This document shows, piece by piece, positions 24,224-37,038 of a stretch of DNA of 39,758 bases. Position numbers and translations under genes: made by a program. Below the pieces are notes generated by a model. It searched no databases, had not been told where the DNA came from, and saw only the letters and a program-made list of their open reading frames with translations. The number at the start of each line of letters is the position of its first letter. Position 1 is the first letter of the stretch. Source of the stretch: a virus; IMG/VR virus record IMGVR_UViG_3300037488_000372, positions 1 through 39,758 of that record; one strand, given 5' to 3'.

Positions 24224-25813
24224 CTATTGCTGTCTTGTTAAGGTTATAATTGCGTTCGTGCTCAGTATCGTGGTGGCTACACTGACCGCGTTCTTCAGTG
24301 CGTTCTTCGTAACCTTCAGCGGATCTATGATCCCCATACCGAACATATCACCGTAGCACTCGTTCTTCACGTCGTAACCGTGCCCATACTCATTCACGTC
24401 TGACATCATCTCGTAGCCGTCCTTCCCCGCGTTGTCCATTATCTGAAGCAGCGGTGACTGTATCGCCCATCCAACGATCTGCATCGCGGTGTACTGGTCG
24501 TGGCTTATGTGGTCCATACTGTCGTCAGCGTATGCTATGATGTCGGACGCTATATTAAACAGAGCCACACCACCACCTGGCAGTATGCCCTCCTCTAAGG
24601 CTGACCTTACCGCACAGACCGCGTCATCAACCCTGTCGTACCTCTCCTTCTGCTCAACGTCCGAGCCTCCTCCGACATATATAACACCAACGCCACCTGT
24701 AAGAGACGCTATACGCTCCTTTAGGGCATCCCTGTCGCCCTTTCTCGTCGAGTTGTTGTGCTGTATCCACAGCTGCTCAACACGCTCTCTAATCGCCTCA
24801 TTTGAGGTCTCGCTTCGAACCAGCACCGTGCTGTCCCTTCCGACGATCACACGATCAGCCTTACCGAGGTGGTCTATAGAGATTAGACTCAGGTCATCAC
24901 CCGTCTGCTCGCTGAAGTACTTAGCACCAACCGCAAGCGCGATGTCCTGCATCAGCTCCTGCTGCTTGTACCCAAACTGTGGTGGCTGGATGTTACAGAA
25001 CTTCAAATTATTATGAGCCACGTTCGCAGCCAGCGTGTTGATCACGTTGCTGGTACACGGTCCTATAATCAGCAGCTTCTTCTGCCCGTTTATGATCGGC
25101 TTCAGAACGTTCTCAATAGAGAGTATGTTGCTTATCTCCTGGTCGGTCACCATAACGTACACGTCGTCCATTATGCACTCCTCCTTCTTCATATCGTTCA
25201 CAAACAGTCTGCTGGTGTACCCTCTGTCTATCTTGATCCCGTTCGTAACCTCGCTGTATGTCCTGTCCGTCTGTGAGTTCTCAACCGTAACGATCCCTTC
25301 TCTGCCGACCTTGTTATACGCGTCAGCGATTATAGCGCCCAGCTCCCTGTCGTTGTTAGCAGATATAGACGCAACGTCCTTCAGCGTCTTACCGCTCACC
25401 TTCTTGCTCATCTTCTCCAGGCTCTTCACAACACCATCCACAACAGTGTTCACGTTACGAAGCACCTCCGTCGGGTTGTTCCTCTCCGTGATGAACTCGT
25501 TGCCCCTTGTGACCATAGCCTCCGTCAGCACGATCGCTGTTGTCGTCCCGTCACCTGCACTGGTCGCAGTCCTGTCGGCTGCTTCTTTCAAGATTTTAAC
25601 AGCTAAATTTTCTACTGGATCAGCTAAGCTAATTGATTTAGCTACAGTAACACCATCTTTAGTAATTGTTATTCCGTGGGTATGTAATTGAGACTCTATA
25701 AGAACAGTCTTTCCACGAGGACCTAATGTAGATTTTACAGCCCTACTTAACTTAGTAATGCCTTCTACTAATTTTTTTCTTCCTTCTTCTTCGAATGATA
25801 ATTCAGTACTCAT
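24224..25813 (-). CDS. groEL: Chaperonin GroEL
   Basis: From the ATG at 25813 (MSTELSFEEEGRKKLVEGIT) the protein is 529 aa. The ATG 10 codons upstream would overlap the preceding small gene, so the internal start is preferred. Chaperonin-60 signatures are complete: STLGPRGKTVLIE near residue 30, TKDGVTVAKSI, the ATPase DGTTTAIVL motif, ISANNDRELG, and RVDDAVCAVRSALEEGILPG with a GGG turn near residue 400. The C-terminus ends TILSTNAIITLTRQQ without the GGM repeats of bacterial GroEL. The DNA of the first about 75 codons is AT-rich while the rest is GC-rich. It should form the folding chamber with the adjacent GroES. Confidence 0.9.
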   Translation of the reverse strand: MSTELSFEEEGRKKLVEGITKLSRAVKSTLGPRGKTVLIESQLHTHGITITKDGVTVAKSISLADPVENLAVKILKEAADRTATSAGDGTTTAIVLTEAMVTRGNEFITERNNPTEVLRNVNTVVDGVVKSLEKMSKKVSGKTLKDVASISANNDRELGAIIADAYNKVGREGIVTVENSQTDRTYSEVTNGIKIDRGYTSRLFVNDMKKEECIMDDVYVMVTDQEISNILSIENVLKPIINGQKKLLIIGPCTSNVINTLAANVAHNNLKFCNIQPPQFGYKQQELMQDIALAVGAKYFSEQTGDDLSLISIDHLGKADRVIVGRDSTVLVRSETSNEAIRERVEQLWIQHNNSTRKGDRDALKERIASLTGGVGVIYVGGGSDVEQKERYDRVDDAVCAVRSALEEGILPGGGVALFNIASDIIAYADDSMDHISHDQYTAMQIVGWAIQSPLLQIMDNAGKDGYEMMSDVNEYGHGYDVKNECYGDMFGMGIIDPLKVTKNALKNAVSVATTILSTNAIITLTRQQ

Positions 25814-25815
25814 AA

Positions 25816-25941
25816 TTAAAATGTAAATTGAATGTGTAAACAAAGGATGTAGATGTTGATCTCTGAGTAGTCAAAGTCTTCGTCTGGTGAGAACCAGGAT
25901 AAACCAAACAGTAGATAGTTTGGTGCAATTGTAATTTCCAT
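25816..25941 (-). CDS. Small ORF upstream of groEL, 41 aa
   Basis: MEITIAPNYLLFGLSWFSPD then EDFDYSEINIYILCLHIQFTF. Hydrophobic/aromatic with an acidic centre. It ends 2 nt before the groEL ATG, and a good TATATTTG promoter lies 28 nt upstream, so it is probably translated as the first gene of the groEL-groES unit. The sequence looks like a small conserved phage protein; function unknown. Confidence 0.55.
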   Translation of the reverse strand: MEITIAPNYLLFGLSWFSPDEDFDYSEINIYILCLHIQFTF

Positions 25942-27008: not shown

Positions 27009-27446
27009 CAAAAAATTATTGTCATTTGTAAACGTCTTACTAATCGACGCAACATAAACCCTAAGCCCTAAGGTTTTTCTTACGGCGAAAGGTAATGATG
27101 TTGGATTATAAAATGTAAGTAAATTCTCAGTTCTGATTATAGATTTAAATTGAATAGGTTTAAAAAATTGCAAAAGACAACTAGAGGCTGACAATTATCA
27201 TCATCGCTATGCACACGCGTGTATATAATATACAATAAACAAAACTTACAAAATCATAACTACTTGATTATCAATGCTAAATATTTTTAAATAATAATCA
27301 TTTTATATGCTATTTGTAAGATTATACTTTAAAAACAAAGTGTAAGAATTAAAAATTGTTGTAAGAATATACTGAATTTAAGTTGCATTTAATCGATAAA
27401 ATATGCAGTTCATCGGAAATACTGTTAAAAAAATGTTAAAAATTTG
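27009..27446. other. AT-rich noncoding region with repeats and palindromes
   Basis: 438 bp with no credible gene; a 76-codon frame in it has no start context or homology-like pattern. It holds TGTAAGA at 27315, 27341 and 27360, and two touching palindromes, ACACGCGTGT (27213-27222) and GTATATAATATAC (27221-27233). It lies immediately upstream of the rightward promoter and may bind regulators of early transcription or replication proteins. Confidence 0.55.
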
Positions 27447-27475
27447 TTTTGCATTATCTAATCGTTGTATGTTTG
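27447..27475 (+). promoter_or_regulatory. Rightward early promoter
   Basis: TTTG/TTTTG boxes at 27444-27451 and the -7 element TATGTTTG at 27468-27475 (TAnnTTTG), with 16-21 bp between them depending on which TTG is used. This fits the Bacteroidota TTG-N(17-23)-TAnnTTTG promoter. The transcript would start near 27482 and carry about 200 nt of leader, including the first hammerhead, before the first ORF. Confidence 0.6.
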
Positions 27476-27568
27476 TCCTGTTCAAAACAACGAACGGCAG
27501 TAAAATAATCAGGTGGACGTGTTTAAAAACATTAGTTCACGGCGTTGAGGTCGAAAGGCATCCGTCAG

Positions 27569-27610
27569 GTTAATAAGACAGTTGTAGTGTGCCTACAATT
27601 CTTTTATTAA
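27569..27610 (+). other. Long imperfect stem-loop just upstream of the type III hammerhead
   Basis: GTTAATAA (27569-27576) pairs with TTATTAAC near 27604-27611, and inside it TTGTAG/CTACAA pair around TGTGC. The hairpin ends where the hammerhead begins and may isolate or tune the ribozyme; it could alternatively attenuate transcription because TTCTTTT follows the inner stem. Confidence 0.5.
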
Positions 27611-27615
27611 CGATA

Positions 27616-27664
27616 TCGTCGCAAAGTGTGTGCTTTGCCTGATGAGTCCTAAAGGACGAAACGG
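27616..27664 (+). ncRNA. Hammerhead ribozyme, type III
   Basis: All core elements are present. Cleavage triplet GTC at 27618-27620; stem I GCAAAG/CTTTGC (27621-27626, 27633-27638) with loop TGTGTG; CTGATGA core at 27639-27645; stem II GTCC/GGAC (27646-27649, 27654-27657) with loop TAAA; GAAA at 27658-27661; stem III formed by TCGT (27616-27619) and ACGG (27661-27664), open-ended. Stem III is short (4 bp, one G-U). Predicted cleavage is after C27620. It lies in the leader 20 nt before the 76-aa ORF. The fold is read from the sequence; activity is not shown. Confidence 0.85.
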
Positions 27665-27684
27665 AAACTTTAAAACTAAACAAA

Positions 27685-27915
27685 ATGAAAACATTATCAG
27701 AATTATTCGAACTAGTAGCAAAAACAGTTGAGAAAAGCCAAAAAAAATATGGTTCGCATTGGTTTATAGACTACAGTGGACACGTTAACAAGTTGGCTAT
27801 CAGATACTACTTCGCAGGATGGAGTGAGGAAGCACACTTTGAAAACGTTGACTTCTACCTAACTGAAGAGGGTATTCAAGGCGCGTATTGGTTTATCAAG
27901 ACTAGACTAGGTTAA
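27685..27915 (+). CDS. Small protein encoded between two hammerhead ribozymes
   Basis: A 76-aa protein: MKTLSELFELVAKTVEKSQK, then KYGSHWFIDYSGHVNKLAIR and YYFAGWSEEAHFENVDFYLT with the C-terminal GIQGAYWFIKTRLG. A helix is followed by a compact aromatic-rich beta region; no membrane segment or known catalytic motif. I have a weak memory of similar sequences in Bacteroidota phages but no function. Its leader contains a type III hammerhead, and its stop codon TAA is part of stem I of a type I hammerhead. The start is preceded by ACTAAACAAAATG, a leader repeated before several genes here. Confidence 0.75.
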   Translation: MKTLSELFELVAKTVEKSQKKYGSHWFIDYSGHVNKLAIRYYFAGWSEEAHFENVDFYLTEEGIQGAYWFIKTRLG

Positions 27916-27961
27916 CTGACGAGGCTTAAGTAGCCGAAACATCCTTCGGGATGTCTTAACC
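27910..27961 (+). ncRNA. Hammerhead ribozyme, type I
   Basis: Stem I GGTTAA/TTAACC (27910-27915, 27956-27961) is open-ended. Core CTGACGA 27916-27922; stem II GGCT/AGCC (27923-27926, 27932-27935) with loop TAAGT; GAAA 27936-27939; stem III ACATCC/GGATGT (27939-27944, 27949-27954) capped by the stable TTCG loop; cleavage triplet GTC 27953-27955. All conserved core positions and all three helices are perfect. Predicted cleavage is after C27955, just before the leader of the next gene. Confidence 0.92.
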
Positions 27962-27978
27962 ATTAAAACTAAAACAAA

Positions 27979-28092
27979 ATGAAACAATTTATTAAAAGAA
28001 ACGAGGGTGAAATTTACTTCACCATTACAGTATTAGGCTTCGCCGTATTATTAATAGTATTAGATTTAAATAACATTATAAAACTTAACTAA
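27979..28092 (+). CDS. Single-span membrane micro-protein, 37 aa
   Basis: MKQFIKRNEGEIYFTITVLG followed by FAVLLIVLDLNNIIKLN. One hydrophobic segment (residues 12-29) after a basic N-terminus. It is the first ORF after the predicted type I hammerhead cleavage site (24 nt) and is 1 nt from the next gene. Its leader AAAACTAAAACAAAATG matches the common early-gene leader. Could be an early membrane-active protein; unknown. Confidence 0.6.
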   Translation: MKQFIKRNEGEIYFTITVLGFAVLLIVLDLNNIIKLN

Positions 28093-28093
28093 G

Positions 28094-28672
28094 ATGAGAA
28101 AATTAACTAAATATCAGTTACAAAAAATATCTAAAAACTTAGATAAATATTTCAATATGGCAACCGACGAAGACATACAATTGGGCTTAGTTTGGTATCA
28201 GCAGGCAAACGACATTTGCAAAGATATAGCGCAAAAGTACGACACGACGACGTTTATTGCTTCAGGAGTTATAAGCGCCTTAAGTCCTCGAAACAAATGG
28301 TATAAAAATATTCAGGACGCGTATACTGTTTTCGAGGCTGTAAAAAATAATATAAGCGCCGTCGATACTAAAGTCAGTACGTTTCACACAAACAAGTTCA
28401 AAGCCTTTGCCATAGCGCAAGGCAAAGTAACAATAACTAGTGAAAGTAAGAAGACGTTTGCATTTTGTGAGAATATTGCGAACTTAAACGAGAACTACAT
28501 TACAGTAGACGTGTGGCATTTAAGAGCCTGTTTCGATAAAACAATGGGCTCAATCGGGGACTTGGCTTATGAGCAATTACAAAAAATTACCTTAAGCAAG
28601 GCTAAGAAATTAGGGCTTAAAGGCTTCGAGTATCAGGCTATAATATGGGGCTCAATTCAAAACAACTTCTAA
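28094..28672 (+). CDS. Uncharacterised HhH/glycosylase-like phage protein, 192 aa
   Basis: A helical protein. The core reads TFIASGVISALSPRNKWYKN, IQDAYTVFEAVK, then STFHTNKFKAFAIAQGK and FCENIANLNENYITVDVWHL. The 'SALSPRxxWxxNxxxA ... NxxKAxxIxxGK ... KxxxFxxNI ... VTVDxW' layout belongs to a phage family that I associate with helix-hairpin-helix DNA glycosylase-like folds. The conserved VDVWH stands where a catalytic Asp would be, but a catalytic Lys is not evident. It lies among small early genes, so a role in DNA modification or host DNA takeover is possible. Confidence 0.5.
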   Translation: MRKLTKYQLQKISKNLDKYFNMATDEDIQLGLVWYQQANDICKDIAQKYDTTTFIASGVISALSPRNKWYKNIQDAYTVFEAVKNNISAVDTKVSTFHTNKFKAFAIAQGKVTITSESKKTFAFCENIANLNENYITVDVWHLRACFDKTMGSIGDLAYEQLQKITLSKAKKLGLKGFEYQAIIWGSIQNNF

Positions 28673-28673
28673 T

Positions 28674-28808
28674 ATGGGACGTAACACAATGCGCAGTAGT
28701 GTAAACAACGCAATGCGCCAAAGACTATTCACCGAATATTTAAACGAACAAAAACTAATTACAAACGATAAACTATCGTTTAAAAAAAAGAAACACAATG
28801 GAAAGTAA
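28674..28808 (+). CDS. Small basic early protein, 44 aa
   Basis: MGRNTMRSSVNNAMRQRLFT then EYLNEQKLITNDKLSFKKKK and HNGK. Very basic; starts 1 nt after the previous stop and overlaps the next gene by 11 nt. Helical N-terminal half. Probably a real early peptide given the tight packing; function unknown. Confidence 0.5.
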   Translation: MGRNTMRSSVNNAMRQRLFTEYLNEQKLITNDKLSFKKKKHNGK

Positions 28809-29061
28809 AATAAAATTACCAAAATTAGGCGACGAAATTTACGCAAGGTGGAATAATAGTATGCAATGGACTACTAGTATATTTATTGGAGAAACTGAAA
28901 ATGGTTTTGAGGTTTATAATTTTTGTATTGAAGATTCTAAACATATTGAATTTTATGAACAAATAACATTTGAACCTCATTATGAAAACAATATAATATT
29001 TTATTCTAAAAAATTCAAGGGTAGAAACTATAGTAATTATAACTTTATAAAAAACAACTAA
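28798..29061 (+). CDS. Hypothetical early protein, 87 aa
   Basis: MESKIKLPKLGDEIYARWNN then SMQWTTSIFIGETENGFEVY. The first 40 residues resemble a small Tudor/SH3-like barrel (aromatic strands with GDEIYARW and FIGETENGF). AT-rich with A/T-ending codons, unlike the preceding gene. 11-nt overlap upstream. No function assigned. Confidence 0.5.
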   Translation: MESKIKLPKLGDEIYARWNNSMQWTTSIFIGETENGFEVYNFCIEDSKHIEFYEQITFEPHYENNIIFYSKKFKGRNYSNYNFIKNN

Positions 29062-29066
29062 GCAAG

Positions 29067-29213
29067 ATGGAATATAATCCCGAACAATACTTTAGATTAA
29101 ATATAGCCAAGGGACGTGAGTTTATGATAAATTCTGAGTACTATGGATACAGTGTAAAAATGAACGGCAAGACCTATAAATATAATCATAACTTTAAAAC
29201 TATAACAAAATGA
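29067..29213 (+). CDS. Small early protein, 48 aa
   Basis: MEYNPEQYFRLNIAKGREFM then INSEYYGYSVKMNGKTYKYN and a basic HNFKTITK end. Tyr-rich and basic; overlaps the next gene by 4 nt (ATGA), which supports real coupled translation. Function unknown. Confidence 0.55.
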   Translation: MEYNPEQYFRLNIAKGREFMINSEYYGYSVKMNGKTYKYNHNFKTITK

Positions 29214-29551
29214 AGACACTACAAATTAACATCGGACTAAACAACAACACAATGACTGCAGAAGAAGTAATAGACTATATCGCAAGCAACAAGGAGTATA
29301 GGCTTATGGCGTATCAGATAGTTGATGCAGAGTTTAACGGACAAGTCGAGCCTACATTCGTGGGACTTCTAGAGTACAACTACTCGAGGCAGTCAAAGAT
29401 ACTAAGTGACTTCGAAAACATTGCCTCAGTAATGACTCAGGAAAGCATAGCCTTAGTGACCGACAGGATGAGTGTGATAGCCTTTAATCCTGCATACGAT
29501 GGCGAAGGCTACCAATTCGATAGTCAGTACTTTAAATACATTAAGATATGA
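29210..29551 (+). CDS. Hypothetical early protein, 113 aa
   Basis: MKTLQINIGLNNNTMTAEEV then IDYIASNKEYRLMAYQIVDA and TQESIALVTDRMSVIAFNPA. Alpha/beta; shares the MKTL opening and the CTATAACAAAATG leader with the ribozyme-flanked ORF. Overlaps the next ORF by 4 nt. No motif recognised. Confidence 0.55.
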   Translation: MKTLQINIGLNNNTMTAEEVIDYIASNKEYRLMAYQIVDAEFNGQVEPTFVGLLEYNYSRQSKILSDFENIASVMTQESIALVTDRMSVIAFNPAYDGEGYQFDSQYFKYIKI

Positions 29552-34092: not shown

Positions 34093-34191
34093 TAGTCAGG
34101 TGGCGGAATGGTAGACGCAAAGCAGCGGTAGGTTAAACCGTAATCCTCGAGGGCTTAGCTAAAGTTACAGGTTCGAATCCTGTCCTGACTA
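34093..34191 (+). tRNA. tRNA-Leu-like gene (anticodon uncertain)
   Basis: Acceptor TAGTCAGG/CCTGACTA (34093-34100, 34184-34191), Leu-type D arm GGCGGAATGGTAGACGC, and a perfect T arm ACAGG-TTCGAAT-CCTGT. The anticodon region contains GGTTAAACC, compatible with UAA, but the best 5-bp stem (GCGGT/ACCGT) would put AGGTTAA in the loop without the usual U33. Total length is about 10 nt above a normal tRNA-Leu. No CCA encoded. It shares the same unusual GGTA...TTAAACC...GGG layout with the preceding tRNA-like gene. Confidence 0.65.
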
Positions 34192-36156: not shown

Positions 36157-37038
36157 ATGATACAAGAAAGATTTAAAGATTACAGCAAAGATCATTGCTG
36201 GCAATATGATATTAGATTAAAAAATATTCAAGTCGATTTAATCGAAGCTAATATAACTACAGAACAAGCACAAGTTCTTAAAATATCTGATTTTATTTTT
36301 AGTATTGCAGAAACAAAAAAAGAACAATTGCTTGTAAGAAATTTTATTGAGCGACACGAATGGCTTGGAAAGGCTTGTGGGTTTTCTCAATATTATTTTA
36401 CAGCATATTATAAAAACATATTGTCTGGCGTTATTGTTATGGGAACTCCAAATGCTTTTAATTTATTATTAGGAGAAGAAAATAGAGATTTAGAAATTCT
36501 AATAAATAGGGGAGCTTGTATTTCGTGGTCTCCAAAAAATTTAGCAAGTAGCCTTATGTCTTTTGCATTAAATTGGATGTCTAAAAATACAAAACATAAA
36601 TTGTTTACGGCATATTCAGATCCAACAGCAAAAGAACTTGGAACTATTTATCAAGCCTGTAATTTTTATTATCTCGGTAATACATTTGGCGCATCAAAAA
36701 AATATATACAGCCTTATAATAAACAACTAGTTTCAGACAGGTGGTTTAGAACAAGATGTGCTTATAAAAATTATGCTAAAGACTTAAATATAACTTGGGA
36801 TGATAATTGGTTAGGCAAAGGAAGAAAGGTTATATGGGATAGAGTTCCAAATGATATTGAAAAACAACTAAGAGATTATTCAAAGAAAAAACAATCAGAA
36901 GCATCATTTATAGAAATACCACCTAAACACAAGTATGCTTACGTTTTAGGAAAAGACAAAAAAGAAACTAAAATGTTAAGAAAATTATTTGAACAAAGAA
37001 ACAAAGTTTATACATACCCAAAAGAAAGAGGAAAATGA
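36157..37038 (+). CDS. Mom/GNAT-like DNA modification protein candidate
   Basis: A 293-aa AT-rich gene. Residues about 62-100 (NFIERHEWLGKACGFSQYYF, then TAYYKNILSGVIVMGTPNAF) and 112-170 (RGACISWSPKNLASSLMSFA, then YSDPTAKELGTIYQACNFYY) match the Mom-like branch of GNAT acetyltransferases: HxxLG start, a strand ending in V-x-G, R-G-A..PKN..S, a YxDP turn and IYQACNFYYLG. Mom converts adenines in phage DNA to an acetamido form that blocks restriction. The next gene overlaps by 4 nt. The call is by pattern; it could be another GNAT. Confidence 0.6.
   Translation: MIQERFKDYSKDHCWQYDIRLKNIQVDLIEANITTEQAQVLKISDFIFSIAETKKEQLLVRNFIERHEWLGKACGFSQYYFTAYYKNILSGVIVMGTPNAFNLLLGEENRDLEILINRGACISWSPKNLASSLMSFALNWMSKNTKHKLFTAYSDPTAKELGTIYQACNFYYLGNTFGASKKYIQPYNKQLVSDRWFRTRCAYKNYAKDLNITWDDNWLGKGRKVIWDRVPNDIEKQLRDYSKKKQSEASFIEIPPKHKYAYVLGKDKKETKMLRKLFEQRNKVYTYPKERGK

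Follow-up and report, generated by a model that had tools for sequence, protein, structure and literature searches.

Why would a phage set two hammerhead ribozymes of opposite type around one small gene? This question is raised by a 39,758-base IMG/VR virus record that is kin to Flavobacterium phage elemoA (Elemovirus); we refer to this whole stretch of DNA as the window. On its plus strand, a type III hammerhead ribozyme (27616-27664; predicted cut 27620/27621) precedes a 76-aa ORF (27685-27915), and a type I hammerhead ribozyme (27910-27961; predicted cut 27955/27956) overlaps the end of that ORF. Both motifs were called with a descriptor and with covariance models. To explain their presence, we consider in turn the integrity of the two motifs, their setting, their distribution among phages and the rules that govern their placement.

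The letters of the type III motif are 5'-TCGT-C up to the cut after C27620 and GCAAAG..CTTTGC-CTGATGA-GTCC/GGAC-GAA-ACGG beyond it. Its core has the form CUGANGA ... GAAA, with an A15.1-U16.1 pair and C27620 as H17, and is surrounded by three helices of 7, 4 and 4 bp; stem III is open, and one of its 4 bp is a U.G wobble. The type I motif reads GGTTAA-CTGACGA-GGCT/AGCC-GAA-ACATCC(TTCG)GGATGT-C up to the cut after C27955 and TTAACC beyond it. It likewise has the core letters and the A15.1-U16.1 pair, with C27955 as H17 and helices of 6, 4 and 6 bp, of which stem I (6 bp) is open. A strict three-stem descriptor matches these two sites alone in the 39.8-kb window, 245 nt apart. In the control of 400 dinucleotide-shuffled windows, six matches reached a score of at least 15, the cutoff for the chance estimate (0.015 per window, against two in the real one).

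The covariance search with Rfam that the original prediction had suggested gave hits below threshold only. At gathering score, which is a curated search threshold and holds no structural criterion, Rfam 15 called no hammerhead in the window, nor in 12 related loci. Below that score, Hammerhead_1 (RF00163) gave 23.4 bits on the type III site (gathering 34), where RF00008 called nothing, and the RAGATH-1 hammerhead (RF03152) gave 22.0 bits on the type I site. Because Rfam at gathering score missed these hammerheads, we relied on our own descriptor and covariance models. Models trained on 43 type I and 41 type III relatives, with the window left out, and used to search the 39.8-kb record, scored 63.6 bits (E 4.1e-15) at 27615-27665 for type III and 73.2 bits (E 3.3e-18) at 27910-27961 for type I. 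In plain ViennaRNA folds, the type I hammerhead is the minimum-energy fold, and the type III hammerhead has -11.6 kcal/mol versus -16.4 kcal/mol for a rival fold that pairs the core. The analysis of the letters and their relatives thus confirms what was originally proposed, namely two real and complete hammerheads of opposite type, predicted to cleave themselves. The coordinates also bear out the proposed product: cutting at both sites would release an RNA of 335 nt (27621-27955) with the complete 76-aa ORF inside.

The operon around the pair runs in the order promoter, structured leader, type III hammerhead, 76-aa ORF, type I hammerhead, 37-aa ORF and DUF7178 protein, all on the plus strand. 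The promoter, read directly from the letters, is of the Bacteroidota type (27443-27475): TTTG (27443-27446), a 21-nt spacer and TATGTTTG (27468-27475), a box that is kept at the same place in the related loci L007, L008 and L009. Transcription would start near 27480. The leader (27478-27620), which the type III cut is predicted to release as its 5' product, folds into a structured RNA with a minimum free energy of -37.3 kcal/mol (z = -3.19 versus dinucleotide shuffles), and a long predicted hairpin of 10 + 8 bp (27569-27611) ends 9 nt before the cut. The 76-aa ORF matched no Pfam family and no PHROGs family; its relatives in L001 and L002 are 61% and 60% identical to it, respectively. Its TAA stop (27913-27915) falls inside the type I motif, where it forms the last half of the 5' strand of stem I. 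The first gene 3' of the type I cut is the 37-aa ORF (27979-28092), with the predicted 5'-OH leader UUAACCAUUAAAACUAAAACAAAAUG and a start that is conserved in L007-L010; a 192-aa protein with a DUF7178 domain match (PF23802) is encoded next (28094-28672). Between these parts, no intrinsic terminators were found on the plus strand from 27200 to 29300. The window also holds a GroEL gene (24224-25843), and its plus-strand arm has recombination genes for a Sak single-strand annealing protein and a PDDEXK exonuclease. Further along, Rfam calls a tRNA (34094-34191, 45.2 bits) that is absent from the ARAGORN calls and has 34 nt in the anticodon/variable region, and a Mom family protein (36157-37038; PF25680) suggests phage DNA modification.

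Hammerheads of this group are widespread among viral contigs. A type I pattern in which stem I, the core and the core-adjacent stem pairs were fixed and the remaining pairs left free matched at least 120 viral stretches; among genome contigs that represent 84,980 species it matched twice, both times in metagenome-assembled contigs. For type III, one pattern gave 51 matches and a second one 46. Among the matches listed, removal of duplicates left 323 hammerheads (210 type I, 113 type III) in 181 loci, and where whole records were searched, the motifs of a given phage were mostly confined to a single region a few kilobases long. Cultured phages are among the carriers. In elemoA, which like the other elemo phages is a phage of Flavobacterium sp. 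BAL314, a predicted type III motif (MT497074, 29242-29294, minus strand) stands ahead of the first early gene, and some 1.7 kb further down the same operon there is one of type I (27447-27504, minus strand). In Cellulophaga phage phi19:3, a type I motif stands between gp051 and gp050. One annotated ORF, elemo15B_phanotate43 (MT497074, 27432-27539, plus strand), overlies a minus-strand type I hammerhead and is probably no gene. The type III motif of L142 scores 45.1 bits (E 6.7e-9) with RF00008. On the minus strand of L043, two near-identical type III motifs (10761 and 10980) lie 164 nt apart with a short ORF between them, and on that of L076 a repeated stretch of 25-30 nt (AAAAGTCAGGTGCAGACTATAACAGGC) stands between each type I motif and the next ATG; a similar stretch is also found where there is no ribozyme. 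A descriptor match in L073, inside a coding sequence and with non-canonical loops, was dropped from the first statistics as a chance match.

Covariation in the stems of these relatives supports the view that the motifs are real ribozymes. Among the 143 distinct type I matches listed, standard pairing reaches 95-96% at the free positions of stem II and 95-100% at the inner free positions of stem III, with all four Watson-Crick types present at each position; shuffling the 3' letters as a control reduces standard pairs to 40-64%. In 49 type III matches, the free pairs of stem I are 98-100% standard with broad covariation. The outer stem III pairs 16.3 and 16.4, which the window forms as well, are 100% standard with covariation and pair 16.5 is 69% standard, so that four pairs in stem III, as in the window, are normal for the group. 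For the pairs quoted, these pattern-based counts are free of selection bias; further pair counts, taken from sequences chosen by a descriptor that demands pairing, are illustrative only. The loops are conserved while the stems vary, as would be expected if stem I and loop II made a tertiary contact: judged from the sequences, loop II of type I is mostly a U-N-A-N-U pentaloop, and loop I of type III is UGAGUG-like in most cases.

Close relatives of the locus give a finer view of how the motifs change. Comparison of the type III motifs of the window and L008 reveals compensatory changes of C-G to U-A and of U.G to C-G in stem III and of C-G to G-C in stem II. The remaining differences are an allowed change of H17 from C to A, an allowed one at N7, and changes in the loops. 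The leaders of the window and L008 are nearly identical over about 106 nt, and L008 and L009 have a nearly identical type III motif beneath unrelated leaders. A search for the same layout in other phages, as originally proposed, found it in L002, where one more gene and another type I motif come after the III-ORF-I arrangement. In L001, which has no type III motif, the ORF is kept together with type I, whose stem III is long. In L008 and L009, type III is kept ahead of other genes; in L007, both hammerheads are absent at the corresponding site; and in L010 (4615-4640) only the 3' portion of a type III motif survives (GAAA and the 3' strands of stems II and III), a remnant that may be a scar of decay or recombination. 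The empty site of L007 and the half motif of L010 indicate that the ribozymes are dispensable between close relatives. Across the window, L007, L008, L009 and L010, the downstream genes are common to all and the gene in the hammerhead slot differs.

The placement of the motifs shows quantitative regularities. Type III comes first in 30 of the 35 clusters that hold both types among the listed loci, a count that none of 20,000 label shuffles reached; in the other five, type I is first. Steps from type I to a following type III number 6 of 138, rarer than in any label shuffle. Type I motifs are fitted closely to gene borders. In 161 of 187 (22% at random), an upstream ORF has its stop between -60 and +12 nt, usually inside or adjoining stem I, and an ATG follows within 35 nt in 142 of 187 (12% at random); the median distance from the motif to the next ATG is 17 nt. 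Location inside a same-strand ORF is found for 3 of 187 type I motifs and for 42% at random. For type III, an ORF stop is present within 60 nt upstream in 68 of 103 cases. The intervals between successive motifs in the first set have a median length of 372 nt and a median coding fraction of 0.94, and 42 of the 76 hold one ORF. The 114 enclosed ORFs are small and fall into 78 unrelated clusters, and a Pfam scan of 69 of them returned one family with two members, almost all being without a known family. As judged by their sequences, the enclosed genes are the variable part of the arrangement, not the constant one.

The RNA upstream of type III motifs has a further regularity. The 50 nt that precede them have a mean folding z of -2.61 versus -0.35 for random stretches (p about 3e-18), and z falls below -1.5 at 64% of these sites as against 6-16% in four controls; by this measure, a strong hairpin is absent at the other 36%. 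Within 75 nt before the cut, 67 of 106 type III motifs (27% at random) have a perfectly paired hairpin of 7 bp or more, which most commonly ends 5-6 nt before the cut and is followed by a run of U in 3 of the 67. One recurrent hairpin, GTGTC-TTCAAA-GACAC, is found at many places in L082, L106, L172 and others, with 37 copies within 40 nt before a type III motif. A structured leader with GAGACCACAG...GTGGCGG..., unrelated to that of the window, lies 109-164 nt upstream of type III in 8 of the 8 loci in which its motif was found (L002:4822, L057:5963, L120, L129, L142:254, L167, L169:10705 and L251), and L009 has a variant of it. At relaxed E-value, Rfam found nothing credible in the leaders of the window and L142 besides the hammerhead itself. 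By itself, a type III cut would provide the upstream RNA with no more than a single strand of stem III. A type I cut would keep stems II and III on that RNA, and the type III motif has its extra hairpin; thus, both would tend toward an upstream RNA that ends in a hairpin. In bacterial RNA decay, a terminal hairpin or a 2',3'-cyclic phosphate would impede 3' exonucleases.

The motifs, their covariation, their order, their placement relative to starts and stops and their upstream hairpins are features of the sequences themselves, and they lead us to a model that we consider likely: the hammerhead pair is a cis-acting, self-cleaving punctuation of the early operon that yields single-gene mRNAs with protected 3' ends. 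Polymerase would start near the position given above and carry the leader, the 76-aa ORF and the following genes on one RNA. The cut after C27620 would part the leader RNA from the first message, and that after C27955 would part the first message from the next genes. Since type III stands at the 5' border and type I at the 3' border, both ribozyme bodies would remain on the 335-nt message, which would thus begin with a 5'-OH, finish with a 2',3'-cyclic phosphate and have a hairpin at either end. The RNA upstream of each cut would end in a hairpin, supplied in the case of type I by its own stems II and III and in that of type III by the extra hairpin before the cut. The likely purpose would be to give single-gene messages whose 3' ends are defined and resist exonucleases, with no need of transcription terminators; as a consequence, adjacent small genes could decay and be translated independently. 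Cleavage in the cell, the chemistry of the ends, the effect on stability and the purpose are what we infer from this arrangement. Speaking against the model are the lower-energy rival fold of the window's type III motif, the dispensability of the ribozymes between close relatives, the five mixed clusters that type I opens and the type III sites that have no strong hairpin upstream. The original prediction had offered an RNA-processing cassette as one alternative. The comparative evidence favors its stabilizing or insulating form, though as a multi-gene punctuation system and not as a one-gene cassette.

Other explanations deserve consideration. The hammerheads might mainly release a noncoding leader RNA that has an independent function (antitermination or action against the host, for instance), any effect on the message being secondary. 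The structure of the window's leader and its near-identity in L008 fit this idea, as does the conserved, unrelated leader that accompanies type III at all eight of its loci. However, what precedes many type III motifs is a gene rather than a leader, as the upstream ORF stops attest, and type I, the larger class, sits between genes; we therefore consider this explanation unlikely. Another possibility is that the motifs are recombination landmarks at gene borders that serve the exchange of small genes, RNA cleavage being irrelevant or minor. The exchange of slot genes above common downstream genes, the shared type III motif beneath the unrelated leaders of L008 and L009, and the half motif of L010 would all be understandable on these terms. 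Yet neither the order rule nor the upstream hairpins would be expected of landmarks, and the covariation of the stems around a conserved core and conserved loops implies selection on RNA structure and not on DNA identity. This explanation seems to us quite improbable.

The original prediction also raised the prospect that the excised RNA is joined into a circular message, by an RtcB-type ligase or by reversal of the ribozyme reaction. The predicted ends have the right chemistry and the layout is suitable, but the comparative results lend it no support. In a search confined to the phages, RtcB (PF01139) was found in 0 of 36 cluster-bearing records, several of them fragments; the control search found it in 9 of 14 genomes. 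Pairing between the ends (the 3' strand of type III with the 3' end of type I) averages 2.78 bp over 32 III-I units and 2.75 bp in shuffled pairs. Many type I motifs come after another type I and therefore lack a type III partner for a circle, and Perreault et al. (2011; PMC3088659) report that no circular product was found from similar units. A circular message is thus highly improbable. To the further suggestion of a mobile, retrozyme-like RNA we give almost no credence. Like the window, where two hammerheads surround a few hundred nucleotides, retrozymes (PMC4918200) have two around a short unit; they are, however, plant retrotransposons with circular noncoding RNAs. Their hallmarks of same-type hammerheads, direct repeats and dispersed copies are missing from the window, in which the two motifs differ in type and sequence, the unit is present in a single copy without repeats elsewhere, and no direct repeats flank it beyond ordinary start-codon context. 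The enclosed ORF, moreover, varies from phage to phage.

The punctuation model has precedents. The original prediction knew of no paired hammerheads that excise an mRNA, but Perreault et al. (PMC3088659) describe clustered hammerheads that flank single genes or short blocks in prophages, suggest processing of a long transcript or circles, and report that three sets cleaved in vitro and one in E. coli. Different-type hammerheads around small, non-conserved phage ORFs were thus reported in 2011 and reviewed in 2017 (PMC6155905); the review lists the role of hammerheads in bacteria and phages as an open question of the field. The systems share at least two same-strand hammerheads around single, non-constant phage genes, as in the window, L002 and the 35 mixed clusters. 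The sets of 2011 include types I, II and III, in Clostridium, Azorhizobium, Agrobacterium and other hosts. In contrast, those described here come mostly from viral contigs and cultured marine Bacteroidota phages and are almost absent from the bacterial genome collection searched, the two metagenome-assembled contigs aside. Differences from the sets of 2011 are the order of III first and I after (which its figure 3 may show), the stop in stem I and the hairpin before type III. Compared with Rfam RF00163, RF00008 and RF03152, the core and the three stems are the same; the window's motifs lie far below gathering score and have short stems and other loops. Theta ribozymes (PMC10879173) are likewise small and self-cleaving, occur in tailed phages that infect Bacteroidota and Bacillota, and have a proposed role in phage RNA processing, but their fold is HDV-like and they stand beside tRNAs rather than between protein-coding genes. 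In the running text of the papers compared, we met neither the order rule nor the cultured-phage cases, nor a stop in stem I or a hairpin ahead of type III. Paired phage hammerheads were therefore known before, and the order and end structures appear to be new, with a priority that this scope leaves uncertain.

The wider implication concerns a large set of tailed phages, including several grown in culture on marine Bacteroidota, in which hammerheads may be a routine punctuation, with a fixed grammar that forms the 3' ends of messages, of those operons in which they occur; we hold the odds of this broader claim to be about even. In that grammar, type III would open, type I would separate genes and carry the stop, and each upstream RNA would end in a hairpin and a cyclic phosphate. 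The order rule, the stop in stem I and the hairpins before type III all point to 3'-end formation and the separation of messages. The presence of the motifs in the cultured phages elemoA and phi19:3 makes this role testable at the bench. If it is true, ribozymes form message 3' ends in these phages in place of terminators and nucleases, and their ribozyme-made message ends would constitute a naturally tuned part list for insulated operons.
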